This document shows positions 2,306 to 10,711 of a stretch of DNA of 35,883 nt, in pieces; position 1 is the first letter of the stretch, and every line of letters begins with the position of its first letter. The notes below the pieces were generated by a model that made no database searches, was not told where the DNA came from, and saw only the letters and a program-made list of their open reading frames with translations. The stretch lies in the NCBI GenBank assembly GCA_026417175.1, contig JAOADT010000020.1:1-35883 (forward strand), read 5' to 3'. Made by a program: the position numbers and the translations under genes. The stretch is from Deltaproteobacteria bacterium (GTDB lineage Bacteria > Desulfobacterota > Syntrophorhabdia > Syntrophorhabdales > JANXAF01).

Positions 2306-3310
2306 ATGAGTTCTTTTAAAGACCTTATAAACAGCATAATCTTCGCAATTGATGAAGGAAAGGTGGGAACCGTAGCTACAGTTATTAAGGCCAAAGGATC
2401 AACACCTGCACCTTCTGGATCAAAAATGTTTATTTGTGAAGATGGATCATTTATTGGGTCAGTAGGTGGAGGATGTATGGAATCAGAGATCTGGATGAGG
2501 TCCAAGTACGTGATGATGAGTAAAGAGCCACAGAAGGTTACTTTTCATCTTACGAGTGAAACTGTGGAAGATGAAGGAATGGTTTGTGGGGGAAAGGTAG
2601 AGATTTTTGTTGAACCGCTAAAGTACGAACATAAACCAATTTACAAAAAAGCTCTTGAGTGTTTTGTAAACGGAGATAGTGCGATTTTATTAACAACCAT
2701 TTCCAGACCGTATAAGAAAGTTCTGCTTACGGAAGGCGGACATGTAATAGGTGATAAAATGGAGAACCTCGAATACATCACTTCAGAATTCTTCTCATTA
2801 AAAGACCCACAAATTTTTAGAGGGGTTGTAGTAGAGCCTTTAATTTGTTATGAAGAGCTCATAATCTATGGGGCAGGTCACATATCCCAGCACGCATGTA
2901 GATTTGCGAAGGCGGTCGGTTTTTATGTAACTATTGTAGATGATAGGGAAAATTTTGCAAATAAAGAGCGCTTCCCGGAGGCAGATCGTATATTGATTGA
3001 AAAATTAACATCTCTGTCTTTAGAGGCCAGACCTCCGAAAAAAGGCTATGCAGTGATCGCAACGAGAGGTCATAAAAATGATGCATTTGTTCTTGAGCAA
3101 ATTCTTAACGATCCACCAAAATACGTAGGAATGATTGGAAGTCAAAGAAAGGTAAAAACAGTCTACAATTATTTGGAGTCAAAAGGAATTGGTAAAGACT
3201 CCTTGAAGAGGGTTCACGCTCCTATTGGGCTTAGGATCGGTGCAAAAACTCCTGAGGAAATTGGGTTAAGTATTGTGGCTGAACTAGTTAAAGAGAGAAG
3301 AAAAAGGTAA
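2306..3310 (+). CDS. XdhC/CoxI-family molybdenum-cofactor sulfuration chaperone
   Basis: 334-residue member of the XdhC/CoxI family. Members bind molybdenum cofactor and help its sulfuration and insertion into xanthine-dehydrogenase-type hydroxylases. The N-terminal XdhC domain shows GSVGGGCMES (51-60) with the conserved Cys57 and GMVCGGKVEIFVEP (from 91). The C-terminal Rossmann domain has GAGHIS at 189-194, followed by VDDREN (211-216) and, further on, GMIGSQRK. Family length is usual. No xanthine dehydrogenase, CO dehydrogenase or nucleotide-maturation gene is adjacent, so the client enzyme must be encoded elsewhere or the protein serves another role. There is no convincing Shine-Dalgarno sequence before the ATG. 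Confidence 0.85.
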   Translation: MSSFKDLINSIIFAIDEGKVGTVATVIKAKGSTPAPSGSKMFICEDGSFIGSVGGGCMESEIWMRSKYVMMSKEPQKVTFHLTSETVEDEGMVCGGKVEIFVEPLKYEHKPIYKKALECFVNGDSAILLTTISRPYKKVLLTEGGHVIGDKMENLEYITSEFFSLKDPQIFRGVVVEPLICYEELIIYGAGHISQHACRFAKAVGFYVTIVDDRENFANKERFPEADRILIEKLTSLSLEARPPKKGYAVIATRGHKNDAFVLEQILNDPPKYVGMIGSQRKVKTVYNYLESKGIGKDSLKRVHAPIGLRIGAKTPEEIGLSIVAELVKERRKR

Positions 3311-3718: not shown

Positions 3719-4951
3719 ATGTATATAATACAGGGACTGCAATGCAGAAATTGTGGAAGAAGTTACACTTTATCTCCTACTCACATATGTGAATTCTGTT
3801 TTGGGGGGCTTGATGTCGTATATGACTATTCCAAAGTAGGACATACATTCACCTTAAAGGCTCTAGAAAATAGACCATACAATATATGGAGATATAAAGA
3901 GCTACTTCCTATAGAAAAAGAGCCTGTATGCGGATTTAATGTGGGTTTTACGCCCCTACTTAGGGCAAGAAGGCTCGAAAGGCTGCTAGGAATAAAGGAA
4001 ATTTATATAAAGAATGACGCGGTGAATCATCCAACGCTATCGTTTAAGGACAGGGTAGTAGCGGTTGCAATTTCCAAGGCAGTGGAATTTGGTTACGATG
4101 TTATTTCCTGTGCCTCTACCGGAAATTTGGCTAATTCTGTTGCGGCATTGGCTGCATCATGTGGTCTGAAAAGTTATGTTTTTATTCCTTGGGATCTTGA
4201 AGCAGGGAAGGTTTTGGGAACATTGATTTATGGTGCCCATTTAATAAGGGTTAAAGGAACATACGACGACGTAAACCGACTCTGCAGTGAAATAGCAGAA
4301 AATTTTGAATGGGCATTCGTCAATATAAACATAAGACCTTTTTACGCTGAGGGATCAAAGACCTTCGGTTTTGAAATAGCAGAACAGATGAATTTTAAGT
4401 TGCCAAAACACATAGTCGTGCCGATGGGAGGGGGGTCACTTATAACAAAAATATGGAAAGCTTTTAAGGAACTACAAACACTTGGTTTCATCGATGCCAT
4501 CGAAACTAAAATGCACGGAGCACAGGCAGAAGGCGCTAACCCTATTGTATCTGCTTATAAACAGGGCAGGAAAACGATAAAACCGGTTAAGCCTAATACA
4601 ATCGCCAAGTCCTTGGCCATAGGCAACCCTGCCGATGGTGCGTATGCCTTGCAGACCATAAGAGAATCGGGTGGAACTGCCGAGGATGTAACGGACGACG
4701 AGATATTGGAAGGAATAAAAATGCTTGCCAGGGAAGAAGGTATATTTACAGAGACAGCTGGTGGCGTAACAGTAGCTGTTACCAGGAAATTGAAGGAACA
4801 AGGCGTAATCGGTGAAGACGATTCAGTTGTAATAGCTATCACAGGAAATGGTTTAAAGACCCAGGAAGTAGTCAGAAATAATATGGGAGAGCCTACTGTA
4901 ATCGAACCAAATTTGAAAGATTTTGAGAAAATTTATTGTACAGTAATCTAA
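3719..4951 (+). CDS. thrC: Threonine synthase-like PLP enzyme with N-terminal zinc ribbon
   Basis: 410-residue fold-type II PLP enzyme. Threonine synthase turns O-phosphohomoserine into threonine. An N-terminal zinc-ribbon-like motif is formed by C9/C12 and C24/C27. The PLP Schiff-base lysine is expected at K110 in LSFKDR, the phosphate-cradle loop is STGNLANS, and a glycine-rich VPMGGGS loop follows. The ATG at 3719 is chosen because the promoter at 3661-3689 and GAGG at 3709-3712 fit it better than GTG 3701. It is the first gene of a tight operon with a ThiS-like carrier, E1-like enzyme, JAMM protease and cysteine synthase. The company of sulfur-carrier genes leaves open that it uses a phosphorylated homoserine for sulfur chemistry rather than only for threonine; that is inference. 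Confidence 0.85.
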   Translation: MYIIQGLQCRNCGRSYTLSPTHICEFCFGGLDVVYDYSKVGHTFTLKALENRPYNIWRYKELLPIEKEPVCGFNVGFTPLLRARRLERLLGIKEIYIKNDAVNHPTLSFKDRVVAVAISKAVEFGYDVISCASTGNLANSVAALAASCGLKSYVFIPWDLEAGKVLGTLIYGAHLIRVKGTYDDVNRLCSEIAENFEWAFVNINIRPFYAEGSKTFGFEIAEQMNFKLPKHIVVPMGGGSLITKIWKAFKELQTLGFIDAIETKMHGAQAEGANPIVSAYKQGRKTIKPVKPNTIAKSLAIGNPADGAYALQTIRESGGTAEDVTDDEILEGIKMLAREEGIFTETAGGVTVAVTRKLKEQGVIGEDDSVVIAITGNGLKTQEVVRNNMGEPTVIEPNLKDFEKIYCTVI

Positions 4952-4962
4952 GGAGGAGACAA

Positions 4963-5475
4963 ATGGTAACGGTAAAAATTCCAGGACCTTTGAGAAAACT
5001 GACCGGCGGTAAAGACCTAATACAACTAGAGGGGGTGGTGACAGTCAAGGATGCTTTAGAAAAGTTAATAGAAACTTACCCTGAACTTGAGGACCGACTA
5101 AAAGATGAGAGGGGGCTTTTAAGGGAATTCATAAATATTTTTGTTAATAATGAGGATATAAGGTTTCTGAACGAACTTGATACCGAACTTAAGGATCAAG
5201 ATCACATAATCCTTGTCCCAGCAATAGCAGGTGGGCAGGGAAAACGGAGAGTCAAGCTTTATTTTCCCCCAGATAAAGTAAAAGAACCAGTGATTTACAA
5301 TTTAGGTCATATGTTCAAAATAGTAACAAACATACGAAAAGCCAATGTTGATGAGGATTTTGGCTGGGTCTCTCTCGAAGTGGAGGGAAGTGACGAAGAG
5401 TTCAGTAAGGCTATTGAATATCTAAAAAAACTAGGAATAAGAGTCGAGCCCATTGAAGGTGATATTTTAATCTGA
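4963..5475 (+). CDS. ThiS/MoaD-like sulfur carrier fused to a C-terminal NIL domain
   Basis: 170 residues in two parts. Residues 1-91 form a ubiquitin-like beta-grasp carrier ending in AIAGG (Gly90-Gly91), the diglycine that would be adenylated and converted to a thiocarboxylate. Residues about 96-170 match the NIL domain, known mainly from the C-terminus of the methionine-importer ATPase MetN where it binds methionine. The chain does not end at Gly-Gly, so the NIL part must be cut off before the carrier can be charged. The JAMM peptidase two genes downstream is the obvious candidate, by analogy with Mec/CysO and HcyD/HcyS. The start is ATG 4963, preceded by AGGAGG; longer in-frame starts reach into thrC and lack a ribosome site. 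Confidence 0.85.
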   Translation: MVTVKIPGPLRKLTGGKDLIQLEGVVTVKDALEKLIETYPELEDRLKDERGLLREFINIFVNNEDIRFLNELDTELKDQDHIILVPAIAGGQGKRRVKLYFPPDKVKEPVIYNLGHMFKIVTNIRKANVDEDFGWVSLEVEGSDEEFSKAIEYLKKLGIRVEPIEGDILI

Positions 5476-5484
5476 GAGCTTAAC

Positions 5485-6639
5485 ATGAATACAAAGGACG
5501 AGAAAGTACAGGAGATTTCAATCCACCAATTGGCAGAGGTCCTAAAACGTGAAAAGGACTTTCTACTTATTGACATAAGGGAAAAGTCGGAAATCCAAAC
5601 GGGATATTTGAAGGGCGCTCTGTTTATAGCACCAGATGAAATACTGGAGAAAGTTACGGAGATGGGTATAGACGGAGAAAGACCTTTGATTTTGTATTGC
5701 GGATTTGGAATAAAGTCTCTAGATGTGGGACGGAAATTAAAGAAACATGGTTATAAAAACGTCTACACCTTAAGAGAAGGATTTGAGGGTTGGCGCGCAG
5801 CTGGGTACGAATTTTCTGGTGATGCGCAGTTTTCTCCGGAACAGTTAACAAGGTATAGCCGACACATTCTTCTTAAAGAGATAGGAATCGAGGGACAGAG
5901 GAGATTAATTCAATCAAAAATTCTCATAGTGGGCGCGGGAGGTCTCGGATCCCCCTCAGCCCTTTACTTGGCAGCTGCCGGCGCGGGAACGATAGGGATT
6001 ATTGATCACGATGTTGTTGATCTGTCAAATCTTCAGAGACAGGTAATTCACACAACAGATAGGGTGGGATTACCAAAGGTCGAATCCGCTCGTGAAACTC
6101 TAAAAAAATTAAATCCTGACGTCAATATAATTACTTATAATGAAAGACTCTCAAAAGAGAATGGCCTAAGAATTTTTTCGGGATATGATATCGTGATTGA
6201 CGGATCTGACAACTTTCCTACTAAATTTCTGATAAATGATCTCGCTTTCTTTACGGGTATCCCTTATGTATTCGGTGGAGTATTCCAGTTTGAAGGACAG
6301 ATAAGCTTGTTCCATCCACACGGAGGAGGTCCGTGTCTTAGATGTGTATTCCCAAACCCTCCTCCCCAAGGTGTTGTGCCGAGTTGTAGCGAGGTTGGTA
6401 TCCTGGGGGTTGTGCCCGGCTTGATAGGTGTACTACAGGCCCAGGAATGCATAAAGGTTCTTTTGGGAATAGGTGACCCACTTATAGGGAGATTTCTAAA
6501 TTTCGATGCGTTAAGAACAAGTTTTGTCACATTTACGGTAAAGAAGAACTCTTCGTGTAGCTTATGTGGAGAAAATCCGACAATTAAAAAGATTGAAGAA
6601 TCAGAACAATTTTGTGAATCGAGGATATGGATAGCATGA
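5485..6639 (+). CDS. Rhodanese-MoeB/ThiF fusion: E1-like activating enzyme and sulfurtransferase
   Basis: 384 residues. The N-terminal rhodanese domain (about 8-112) has active-site Cys72 in the loop CGFGIKS. The C-terminal ThiF/MoeB domain (about 118-370) has the ATP-binding GAGGLGSP (150-157), a downstream Asp (GSDNFPTK region) and two zinc-binding CxxC pairs (C284/C287 and C358/C361). It should adenylate the carrier's C-terminal glycine and hand over persulfide sulfur from the rhodanese to make the thiocarboxylate. In eukaryotic MOCS3/Uba4 the rhodanese is C-terminal; here the order is swapped. The gene starts ten bases after the carrier gene and overlaps the next one, so co-translation is likely. 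The Shine-Dalgarno sequence is weak (GAGAG). Confidence 0.9.
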   Translation: MNTKDEKVQEISIHQLAEVLKREKDFLLIDIREKSEIQTGYLKGALFIAPDEILEKVTEMGIDGERPLILYCGFGIKSLDVGRKLKKHGYKNVYTLREGFEGWRAAGYEFSGDAQFSPEQLTRYSRHILLKEIGIEGQRRLIQSKILIVGAGGLGSPSALYLAAAGAGTIGIIDHDVVDLSNLQRQVIHTTDRVGLPKVESARETLKKLNPDVNIITYNERLSKENGLRIFSGYDIVIDGSDNFPTKFLINDLAFFTGIPYVFGGVFQFEGQISLFHPHGGGPCLRCVFPNPPPQGVVPSCSEVGILGVVPGLIGVLQAQECIKVLLGIGDPLIGRFLNFDALRTSFVTFTVKKNSSCSLCGENPTIKKIEESEQFCESRIWIA

Positions 6640-7046
6640 AATGGCCTCTTATTAAGATCCCTTCTATTATTTACCTAGAGATGATAAGTCACTCTCAAAA
6701 AGAGTGGCCAAATGAAGCATGCGGTATTCTTGCTGGTACCGATGATGAAGTAAGAAAGATATATCCTTTAGAAAATCAGGAAAAAAGTCCGTACAAATTC
6801 CTTATTTCTCCGCTCGACCAGTTAAAAGTCTTGTCCGACATAGAAAAAAGTGATCTCAGGATGGTTGGTGTTTACCACTCCCATCCAAATACAGACCCTT
6901 ATCCATCTAAGAGGGATTTAGAGTTTGCGATCTATCCTGATGTTTTATCAGTTATTATTTCTCTCAAAAGAAAAGAAAAGCCCAAAGTTTACATTTTTTC
7001 TTTCGAAGATGGAAATGTTAAAGAAGTTGAATATACAATCACATGA
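6636..7046 (+). CDS. JAMM/Mov34 metallopeptidase (Mec-like)
   Basis: About 136 residues. It carries the JAMM zinc-protease signature: catalytic Glu in NEACGIL, then H-S-H-P with Ser and Asp following (YHSHPNTDPYPSKRDL, a His-x-His-x7-Ser-x2-Asp spacing). Mycobacterial Mec releases cysteine from the CysO carrier, and Wolinella HcyD trims the HcyS carrier. Here the likely substrate is the carrier-NIL fusion, the carrier-cysteine adduct, or both. The ATG at 6636 forms an ATGA overlap with the stop of the upstream gene and sits 11 bases after GAGG. An alternative ATG at 6627 lies only two bases after that GAGG and is less likely. Confidence 0.88.
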   Translation: MKWPLIKIPSIIYLEMISHSQKEWPNEACGILAGTDDEVRKIYPLENQEKSPYKFLISPLDQLKVLSDIEKSDLRMVGVYHSHPNTDPYPSKRDLEFAIYPDVLSVIISLKRKEKPKVYIFSFEDGNVKEVEYTIT

Positions 7047-7055
7047 AAAGATGTC

Positions 7056-7955
7056 ATGTATTTTAATCGTTTAATCAGAAAAACAATAGTTCAAACAATA
7101 GGTAATACCCCGCTCATAAATATTTCCGGTCCAAATGTCAGTTCCCAGGTCAGAATTTTAGCTAAAGCTGAATTTATGAATCCTGGGGGATCCATTAAAG
7201 ATCGAACTGCCTTTAGAATCATAAAAGATGCTTTTGACACAGGGAGACTGAACAGTTCAAAGATGTTACTGGATGCTACCTCTGGAAATACCGGTATAGC
7301 GTACTCGATGATATGTGCAGGCATAAATGTACCTGTGGAGCTTGTGGTTCCTGGAAATATCAATCCTATAAAAAAAAGAATTATGGAAGCTTTTGGTGCT
7401 AAACTCATACTCAGTGATCCTTTGGAAGGCTCAGAAGGGGCATACAAGTTGGCCCAGAAAATTTACGAGCGATACCCTGAGAAATATTTTTTCGGAAATC
7501 AGTATAAAAACCGATCAAATTTTCTTGCACATTATGAATCAACTGGGAGTGAGATTCTAAAACAAACAAAGGGTAAAATCACACACTTTGTGGCCACTTT
7601 AGGTACAGGGGGAACCATTTTCGGGATAGGCAAGCGATTAAAAAACTTTAATCCGCACATAAAGGTAATATGCGTTCAGCCAGATGATGATTTCCACGGG
7701 ATAGAAGGTTTAAGACATGTAAGAGAACTTAAAACCAACGGTATTTACGTAGAGTCGGTGATTGATGAGGTCGTATATGTCAAAACTGAGGAGGCCTACA
7801 GTGCTCAAAGGTCAATAGCGAAGGAAACTGGCATCCTGGTTGGTTTCTCATCTGGTGCTTCTTTTTTTGTTGCAACTCAATTAGCCAGTTCGTTAAAAAA
7901 AGGGTTAGTGGTGACTATATTTCCTGACCGAGGAGAAAGGTACGTTTCTTTATAA
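7056..7955 (+). CDS. Cysteine synthase family PLP enzyme (CysM/CysK-like)
   Basis: 299-residue fold-type II PLP enzyme with the Schiff-base lysine K48 in NPGGSIKDR, the substrate loop SGNTGIA and the PLP-phosphate loop GTGGT. It would add sulfur to an activated serine. In this operon the sulfur donor is probably the carrier thiocarboxylate, as for mycobacterial CysM with CysO, not free sulfide. The segment GIEGLRHV lies where O-phosphoserine sulfhydrylases have an arginine for the phosphate, which hints at O-phosphoserine as substrate; this rests on memory of the family. The last gene of the operon, ten bases after the JAMM gene, with a weak ribosome site. The C-terminus is complete for a short family member. 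Confidence 0.88.
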   Translation: MYFNRLIRKTIVQTIGNTPLINISGPNVSSQVRILAKAEFMNPGGSIKDRTAFRIIKDAFDTGRLNSSKMLLDATSGNTGIAYSMICAGINVPVELVVPGNINPIKKRIMEAFGAKLILSDPLEGSEGAYKLAQKIYERYPEKYFFGNQYKNRSNFLAHYESTGSEILKQTKGKITHFVATLGTGGTIFGIGKRLKNFNPHIKVICVQPDDDFHGIEGLRHVRELKTNGIYVESVIDEVVYVKTEEAYSAQRSIAKETGILVGFSSGASFFVATQLASSLKKGLVVTIFPDRGERYVSL

Positions 7956-8592: not shown

Positions 8593-9369
8593 TTATTCCT
8601 GCAGTCTTTCAGGATGGGTGTAAACAGAGTACCGGTAGCTAGTTGCATGACAGATAAGGGTGATCCCGGCTTCCTGGGCCATGGTAAAGGCCCTTGCGGT
8701 AGGAGAATGTCTCGATATCACGATTGGCACTCCCATTTTTGATGCTTTTATCAGCATCTCTGAGGATACTCTACCCGTTGTCAGGAGAATTTTATCTTTA
8801 GGATCCACATTTCTAAAGAGACATTCGCCCATTATTTTATCCACCGTATTGTGTCTTCCTACATCCTCTGCGATAATCAAAATCTGGTTAGTGTCTGCCA
8901 ACGCAGAGGCATGAACCCCTCCGCTGATTTTGAAAAGCTCAGCTTTTTCTTGAAAGCTTTTCATGAGAAAAGGGATTTGTTTCACTCCAACGGTTATGGA
9001 TGATTCGATTTTTTGTAGATCGGTTTGAAAGACAGAGCCACCCCCGCATCCAGAGGTAAGAACTTTGGTTTTTTTTAAGTTAAATTCCGCATTTTTTATT
9101 CTCACATTGACGATTTTCTCATCATCGCACAATCCCAAGACAAGCACATCTTCAATCTTTTTTATTAAATTTTCGAAAAAAAGAAAACCCACTATTAAGA
9201 AATTTGTCTTAACAGGAGTGCATTGAATAGTAATCATTTCATAACCATTGACGTAAAGGGTCAAACTGACTTCTTGCGGAAGATAGGTGAAACTTTCCGA
9301 GAATCCAAATCCTGAGTATTTTAAATGTGTAATAGCCCCGAATATCCCTTTATACAACTCTAGGTTCAT
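8593..9369 (-). CDS. fdhD: FdhD-family formate dehydrogenase sulfurtransferase/chaperone
   Basis: 258 residues. FdhD moves sulfur from a cysteine desulfurase to the Mo/W-bis-pyranopterin cofactor and is needed for active formate dehydrogenase. Visible family marks are LTSGCGGGS around Cys108, DVGRHNTVDKIMGECL and TTGRVSSEML. The E. coli enzyme has a CxxC pair at this loop; here only Cys108 remains, with glycines in place of the second Cys. No formate dehydrogenase subunit is in the window, so its client is elsewhere. The ATG at 9369 lacks a good ribosome site, and the predicted start should be treated as approximate. It is one of the few intact genes in the decay zone. Confidence 0.88.
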   Translation of the reverse strand: MNLELYKGIFGAITHLKYSGFGFSESFTYLPQEVSLTLYVNGYEMITIQCTPVKTNFLIVGFLFFENLIKKIEDVLVLGLCDDEKIVNVRIKNAEFNLKKTKVLTSGCGGGSVFQTDLQKIESSITVGVKQIPFLMKSFQEKAELFKISGGVHASALADTNQILIIAEDVGRHNTVDKIMGECLFRNVDPKDKILLTTGRVSSEMLIKASKMGVPIVISRHSPTARAFTMAQEAGITLICHATSYRYSVYTHPERLQE

Positions 9370-9970: not shown

Positions 9971-10711
9971 CTATAAATCCATGAGCATTCTTCTGTGTTT
10001 TTCGCATAACTTGCCTGAGATAATCTGGGATTGAATCATATCTCGTAACCAGTGTGCATTAAAAAGCCGGCAATTTTTGTCCTCGCAAAAAGGGTTACCT
10101 GTAAAATAGAAGAATATGCTCTGGATCATGTACCCGCGAAATATATCCGGTAAACGTTCTTCAGGAAACTCTAAGTTCGGAGAAAAAGTTTCTCCCAAAG
10201 CCATTTTTACCATCCAGGCCCAATAATATTGCTTGCTCCTCGCTGGCACATATCTGATTCCAGAAACGGAGATTATTGTAGGAAAAGAAAAAAGGGCTAT
10301 TCTCCCGTGATAGTAACCATCATAGTCTATTGTTGCAATTAAGTCGTCCGTCACCACAATATGGACATGGTCCAATGGATTTTTTTTCATCCAGAGGCTA
10401 AGAATTTTGAAGTAAATGTTTCTGAGGATGACTGCATCATAAAGAACTCCTACACTTTTATTCCCAAAAAACCTACCCATTTCGTATTCAATCTCGTAGG
10501 GAAAAGGGTTTATAATGGGAGATCTGGCAGCAACTATACGAGCTGATGCAAAGGATCGCGCTATTTCGTATCTTTTTTCCTCAGGAACCCAATGTAGGAG
10601 ACTGTCACAAAAATTTACATCGTATCCTAGATTATTAATCTCTTTAATGTTGGAAACGTTCTTCCAATTAAGATTTTCTTTAGTCTCAACGTAAAAAAAT
10701 ATCTTTTTCAC
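9971..10711 (-). CDS. Conserved protein paired with Thi4, possible DUF6775-like metallopeptidase
   Basis: 246-residue soluble protein. The C-terminus holds a likely metal site made of C209, C214, C236 and H239, with the segment NCRLFNAHW between the pairs. The middle has a YYHGRIALF...IISVSGIRYVPAR stretch. This arrangement recalls the DUF6775 putative metallopeptidase family, but that name is from memory and the catalytic residues are not established. The GTG start at 10711 lies inside the end of the Thi4 gene (26-base overlap), so the two are translationally coupled and probably share a process. No signal peptide or membrane helix is seen. Confidence 0.6.
   Translation of the reverse strand: MKKIFFYVETKENLNWKNVSNIKEINNLGYDVNFCDSLLHWVPEEKRYEIARSFASARIVAARSPIINPFPYEIEYEMGRFFGNKSVGVLYDAVILRNIYFKILSLWMKKNPLDHVHIVVTDDLIATIDYDGYYHGRIALFSFPTIISVSGIRYVPARSKQYYWAWMVKMALGETFSPNLEFPEERLPDIFRGYMIQSIFFYFTGNPFCEDKNCRLFNAHWLRDMIQSQIISGKLCEKHRRMLMDL

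Follow-up and report, generated by a model that had tools for sequence, protein, structure and literature searches.

A ThiS-NIL sulfur carrier operon of Desulfobacterota and its probable part in homocysteine as well as cysteine synthesis

Which enzymes does a sulfur carrier protein serve when a whole NIL domain follows its C-terminal diglycine, and what is that domain there for? The question is raised by an operon of five genes at positions 3719-7955 of contig JAOADT010000020.1 (assembly GCA_026417175.1), from a deltaproteobacterium of the order Syntrophorhabdales in the phylum Desulfobacterota; the 35,883 nucleotides of this contig that were analysed are called the window here. The open reading frames are co-directional, spaced by 9-11 nt or overlapping, and encode a ThrC-like enzyme dependent on pyridoxal phosphate (PLP), a ThiS-NIL fusion as putative carrier, a rhodanese-E1 fusion, a JAMM metalloprotease and a CysM-type cysteine synthase. 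The first-pass annotation, made from the sequence alone, had read them as a system built on a thiocarboxylate carrier, akin to CysO or HcyS, and the domains and the gene set bear this out; the five genes lie where it had put them, and each part is backed by Pfam. For comparison, 395 genomes of the phylum were surveyed and gene maps were made for 40 loci.

We consider it likely that one shared carrier serves both CysM, for cysteine, and a MetM-type enzyme, for homocysteine, with NIL partnering the homocysteine branch. From domains, gene order, distribution, the active-site signature and riboswitches, all of them observed, we infer the catalytic steps, the cut and the role of NIL as follows. The JAMM enzyme would remove the NIL domain behind Gly91, and the rhodanese-E1 protein would then adenylate and thiocarboxylate the carrier at Gly91. 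The charged carrier would be used by CysM to form cysteine or, together with O-phosphohomoserine, by the MetM-type ThrC-like enzyme to form homocysteine, the methionine precursor. The JAMM enzyme may also free the amino acid from the carrier, as in CysO, and NIL, probably produced in the same quantity as the carrier, would act in the homocysteine branch, probably by ligand-binding feedback or as a docking module. Of all steps in the model, the one assigned to NIL is the weakest.

The carrier and the ThrC-like enzyme

The claim that a NIL domain stands behind the diglycine was confirmed by profile search and by fold comparison. The Pfam match (residues 95-162) starts directly past Gly90-Gly91 and scores 60 bits, well over the family's gathering threshold of 24, and the nearest fold is the C2 domain of MetN. 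An AlphaFold model of the carrier, built with 50 relatives, displays two confident domains with a low predicted template modelling score (pTM); its predicted local distance difference test score (pLDDT) drops under 50 in just two places, residues 88-91 and the C-terminal tail (167-170), and the diglycine is therefore modelled as a flexible hinge. In Foldseek the first half of the protein matches CysO (3dwg, 40% identity; 4n6e), and the second half the C2/NIL domain of MetN (3tui, root-mean-square deviation 1.0, 74 columns). The best Foldseek match, the MoaD-related protein 1v8c of Thermus thermophilus, is a solved structure without assigned function and has, like the carrier, two domains, one of them behind a ThiS-type GG end, but the similarity in sequence is limited to the ThiS half. 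As the sequence profile reaches only that half, 1v8c was rejected as a homolog of NIL.

The first gene had been taken for an ordinary threonine synthase, a claim that is not supported, since its active site differs from that of the housekeeping enzyme at strictly conserved positions and the genome has a second ThrC. Asn204, Arg206 and Tyr209 are present in 34/34 operon enzymes, where Ser, Asn and Arg occupy these positions in 15/15 usable housekeeping ThrC sequences (a count that leaves out L101, which was in the wrong frame). Many positions split the two sets in this all-or-none manner, L137, N204, R206, Y209, G238, G239, K244, D306, G307, G348 and G349 (window numbering) among them. Tyr209 aligns with Arg160 of Thermus ThrC, an arginine that is replaced in every one of the 34 operon enzymes. 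We take Asn154, Ser155 and Arg160 of Thermus ThrC to be phosphate-site residues, Arg160 serving as a ligand for the phosphate group of the substrate. Among themselves the operon enzymes share 55-70% identity, but with the second, ordinary ThrC present in nearly all of the same genomes only about 36-44%. In the window genome this second copy (L045) is of the long type (205 bits to TIGR00260, cut-off 167), and the operon enzyme was therefore rejected as the sole threonine synthase.

A relative from Nonomuraea gerenzanensis (50% identity) carries the same signature (STGNL, VN.N.RPYYAEGSKT, TKI.K, GNPADG, ETAGGVT) and clusters with the operon enzymes in the tree (support 0.98). Its gene has an S-adenosylmethionine (SAM) riboswitch upstream and a gene for a carrier ending in PAVAGG just downstream; it is called MetM-like here by this gene layout, not by assay. 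MetM and MetO are the homocysteine synthase and the carrier of Streptomyces (Hasebe et al. 2024, doi 10.1128/aem.01247-24, as cited in PMC12172450). Because the operon enzyme shares signature and clade with the Nonomuraea enzyme, whose riboswitch/carrier layout is that of MetM/MetO, we file it as MetM-type. Judging from sequence and gene layout, the “threonine synthase” of the operon is probably not a threonine synthase but an enzyme of this type, and the suggested link to phosphohomoserine was right in direction. The operon resembles MetM/MetO in that a ThrC-homologous PLP enzyme, distinct from the housekeeping ThrC, adjoins the gene of a GG carrier, with phosphohomoserine as the shared precursor. 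It differs in that NIL is fused to the carrier or follows it and that CysM, JAMM and rhodanese-E1 are part of the operon; the Nonomuraea enzyme/carrier pair comes with no NIL. The chemistry of MetM/MetO would thereby be extended to another phylum. The pairing was also seen in an archaeon, as a Euryarchaeota contig (L004, JAADFM010000012.1, 2045-4630) reveals a MetM-type ThrC (55%), then a GG-ending carrier, then an E1-like frame.

The link to methionine

Rfam searches identified SAM riboswitches (RF00162) on the coding strand upstream of 17 operons in which carrier and NIL are separate genes (the split form), of one locus with a fused carrier (L054) and of L064, which carries a more distant ThrC-like enzyme; none was found in the fused loci searched other than L054. 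This arrangement of the relatives' operons is a further likeness to MetM/MetO, where such a riboswitch occurs in Streptomyces without being universal. As other known homocysteine enzymes we considered two families, PF01053 and HcyBio/DUF39, the latter a known homocysteine-enzyme family (PMC5764234). Neither is found in 35 of the 395 genomes, and a MetM-type enzyme is present in 24 of these 35 compared with 21 of the 360 others (Fisher p 5e-18, kinship uncorrected). The 11 genomes left lack MetM as well, and at least two of them are incomplete (G002 66%, G094 80%). In genomes without PF01053 and DUF39, the operon may supply the homocysteine route that they otherwise lack.

Some results weigh against a homocysteine role in the window genome itself. 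No SAM riboswitch was found by Rfam in the window, so that the copy under study departs from its relatives and from MetM/MetO in this respect. The same genome has HcyBio and a NIL-ferredoxin beside COG2122, and the operon would therefore be a second possible route to homocysteine, not a required one. The label of the enzyme is also affected: in vitro, a cyanobacterial (Microcystis) MetM homolog acted both as a threonine synthase and as a threonine deaminase (PMC12172450), which leaves room for the name ThrC. A system for cysteine alone, with a true threonine synthase merely placed in the same operon and the carrier serving CysM as in mycobacteria, would draw on that homolog, a close one that makes threonine from phosphohomoserine, on the NCBIfam label of the enzyme, which is threonine synthase, and on a CysO-like carrier adjacent to CysM. 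We regard it as quite improbable in view of the second ThrC in the same genomes, the phosphate-site residues, which are strictly conserved yet unlike those of ThrC, the SAM riboswitches on the operon, and the association with the absence of other homocysteine enzymes. Targeted searches of the window genome further revealed a cysteine desulfurase, two more cysteine synthases (L039, and L040 with 44%) and a weak match to CysE (169 bits, cut-off 211); CysM may use either O-acetylserine or O-phosphoserine.

The preferred reading, a carrier shared by cysteine and homocysteine synthesis, has several relatives among known systems. With CysO/Mec+/CysM of Mycobacterium tuberculosis, the operon shares the combination of a CysO-like carrier, a JAMM protein with an intact motif and a CysM-type enzyme, but CysO ends at the diglycine, whereas here NIL follows the GG, and a MetM-type enzyme and rhodanese-E1 are added. 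In Wolinella, HcyS/HcyD/HcyF together with MetY provide carrier, JAMM and E1 for homocysteine, and residues behind the GG need to be removed. Carrier, JAMM, E1 and the residues beyond the GG recur in the operon, but targeted searches gave no PF01053 (MetY-type) match in the window genome, and the acceptor has the fold of ThrC instead. The core of ThiS, JAB, E1-rhodanese and cysteine synthase was already predicted by Iyer et al. 2006 in their class 4c and 4e operons, where NIL and threonine synthase are unmentioned (PMC1779556). Our literature search found nothing that joins NIL with ThiS. The kind of pathway is thus already known (CysO, HcyS, MetM/MetO, the 2006 operons), while NIL-coupled carriers appear to be new.

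NIL and the JAMM enzyme across the phylum

A search for further ThiS-NIL fusions and their neighbours had been suggested by the first-pass annotation. Including the window genome, the fusion is present in 15/395 genomes by the carrier search, and the carriers of the other 14, which are 45-57% identical, adjoin the same partner genes; a chance fusion or an assembly error was therefore rejected. As separate nearby genes, ThiS and NIL occur in at least 26 of the 395 genomes. Across many families the mapped loci keep one gene set, consisting of the MetM-type/ThrC-like enzyme, often a small sulfite reductase (NIR_SIR), ThiS, NIL, CysM, JAMM and E1. The split-form carriers end in P-A-I-A-G-G plus 0-5 residues, and in most split loci the start codon of NIL overlaps the stop of the carrier, a sign of translational coupling. 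Where the genes overlap (L066-L074, L078, L080, L062), the diglycine codons GGA GGN provide a Shine-Dalgarno sequence, GGAGG, roughly 6 nt ahead of the start codon of NIL, with an unconserved two-residue tail as spacer. These codons were found in 12/13 overlapping carriers, 0/11 other unfused ones and 5/15 fused ones, the relatives not being independent. Such a double use of the diglycine codons would explain the short tail that has to be trimmed from these carriers. Whether fused or not, NIL probably stays beside the carrier in equal dose.

Could NIL then bind methionine in cis and gate the JAMM cut, so that methionine sets the amount of mature carrier, as had been proposed? The NIL domains of MetN and of L-aspartate semialdehyde sulfurtransferase (the DUF39 system) are described as methionine-binding regulatory parts (PMC12068725), the cut site lies in a hinge immediately before NIL, and the JAMM subtype tracks fused carriers. 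However, NIL is a gene of its own in most relatives, among them the genomes with the split form, whose carriers already end 0-5 residues after the GG, and its conserved role is therefore not gating or shielding of the cut in cis. The eponymous N-I-L motif, moreover, has become N-I-R in most copies, and the loop between the strands is four residues shorter than that of MetN. We consider such gating improbable and do not uphold it.

The other half of that proposal, a JAMM cut behind Gly91, is plausible on the distribution and phylogeny of the JAMM gene, which is present in 11/11 fused genomes that are 90% complete or more. Its tree unites every copy from a locus with a fused carrier (L058 included) and the copy from L061, a locus with a ThiS-E1 fusion, in one clade (support 1.0), while the split-form copies fall outside it. 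The MetM tree instead groups the fused loci L054, L055, L057 and L058 with split loci (0.96). As the JAMM clade fits the fused or split form whereas the MetM tree does not, the JAMM subtype appears to track carrier architecture, as expected for an enzyme that would remove a whole domain after Gly91; both trees are small, and the link rests on two lineages. With this fused carrier and the JAMM subtype that goes with it, the maturation of a ubiquitin-like protein by loss of a whole domain behind the diglycine becomes cleanly testable.

What NIL does instead can be stated only tentatively: that it is a partner of the homocysteine branch, acting as a ligand-binding feedback or docking module, falls just short of an even chance in our estimate. 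The feedback could come from methionine or homocysteine, and docking could bring carrier and enzyme together. In a single-sequence search the NIL of the carrier is nearer to that of NIL-ferredoxin (34%, 5e-9) than to that of MetN (0.02). L-aspartate semialdehyde sulfurtransferase, composed of DUF39/HcyBio, NIL-ferredoxin and COG2122 (PMC5764234, PMC12068725), resembles the operon in having a NIL-containing partner in homocysteine synthesis and is the set also encoded elsewhere in the window genome, but its enzyme is another one, its substrate is aspartate semialdehyde, and its NIL, 34% identical, is fused to a ferredoxin and not to a carrier. The operon would add to MetN and the DUF39 system a third context in which NIL domains are connected with methionine. 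In a wider and rather doubtful version, NIL would be a dedicated module of the homocysteine branch that works with unrelated synthases (MetM type, DUF39), either binds the product or docks the carrier, and decides how carrier-borne sulfur is divided between cysteine and homocysteine; these carriers would also feed DUF39 enzymes (compare the cluster of genome G393 below).

Several loci add observations on these components. Genome G393 has a tight cluster (L061, 2628-7619) of DUF39/HcyBio, NIL-ferredoxin, a NifU-like protein, JAMM, rhodanese-E1 and a ThiS-E1 fusion, in which the DUF39 enzyme may receive its sulfur from the carrier thiocarboxylate. In genome G128 (L075, 4819-5601) a divergent COG2122-like gene, 44% identical to one beside a NIL-ferredoxin in L002, adjoins the operon of MetM-type enzyme, ThiS and NIL. 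Carriers fused ahead of E1, with another domain behind the diglycine, were found in L060 (980-2050), L061 (6552-7619) and L003 (6986-8404, Neomarinimicrobiota, which also includes rhodanese). In genome G150 (L056, 1873-3175) genes for TusA and a ThiI-like protein separate the MetM-type gene from the fused carrier, a hint at TusA as sulfur source. A single-sequence scan of named genomes gave just five distant loci, namely standalone NIL genes of Armatimonadota (L005, L006 and L007, with no carrier gene nearby), a ThiS-E1-rhodanese fusion and the archaeal ThrC-ThiS pair.

Operon features and neighbouring genes

The coordinates are compiled in the table. The rhodanese-E1 protein scores 474 bits to NF006444, above the cut-off of 449, and shows two CxxC motifs, GAGGLG and the rhodanese loop YCGFGIKS; the cysteine synthase reaches 325 bits to TIGR01138, below its cut-off of 394 bits.

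Table. Positions of the operon genes and of their domains and motifs in the window
Feature	Positions	Strand	Evidence
ThrC-like PLP enzyme with N-terminal zinc-ribbon-like Cys cluster, proposed MetM-type (phosphohomoserine-dependent homocysteine synthase)	3719..4951	+	Pfam PALP 4e-75; clade and signature residues
Residues 204-209 (N-I-R-P-F-Y) in place of the housekeeping ThrC phosphate-site N/S-x-N-P-x-R	4328..4345	+	alignment to solved ThrC
ThiS-NIL fusion, putative sulfur carrier, 170 aa	4963..5475	+	Pfam ThiS and NIL; AlphaFold, Foldseek
ThiS/CysO-like beta-grasp domain, end P-A-I-A-G-G	4972..5235	+	Pfam 1.3e-16, residues 4-91; family profile to CysO 3dwg 1.2e-27
Gly90-Gly91 codons, expected site of JAMM cut and of adenylation/thiocarboxylation	5230..5235	+	sequence; hinge pLDDT < 50, residues 88-91
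NIL domain	5245..5448	+	PF09383 1.3e-16 to 2.1e-16, residues 95-162; family profile to MetN C2 3dhx 5e-8
Rhodanese (N-terminal)-E1/MoeB-type adenylyltransferase fusion	5485..6639	+	Pfam Rhodanese 3.4e-15, ThiF 2.2e-81; NF006444
JAMM metalloprotease	6627..7046	+	Prok-JAB 2e-20; motif
JAMM motif HSHPNTDPYPSKRD, intact	6876..6917	+	H-S/T-H-x7-S-x2-D here and in 24/24 operon copies of relatives
CysM-type cysteine synthase	7056..7955	+	Pfam PALP 9e-63; TIGR01138

The operon is flanked by genes for an XdhC-like aldehyde oxidoreductase maturation factor (XdhC_rel_AOR, 2306-3310) and for FdhD (8593-9369). These neighbours, and the fact that SAMP1-type carriers can serve several pathways, could speak for a carrier used mainly in molybdopterin or tungstopterin synthesis, an explanation to which we give almost no weight: both genes lie outside the conserved neighbourhood of the relatives, the operon showed neither moaE nor a moaA-like gene, and it is CysO that the carrier profile matches. 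Further downstream, the window contains a gene of the DUF6775/DUF7001 family (9971-10711), a “probable metallopeptidase”, and a frame resembling it is located close to the L047 operon (1231-2379).

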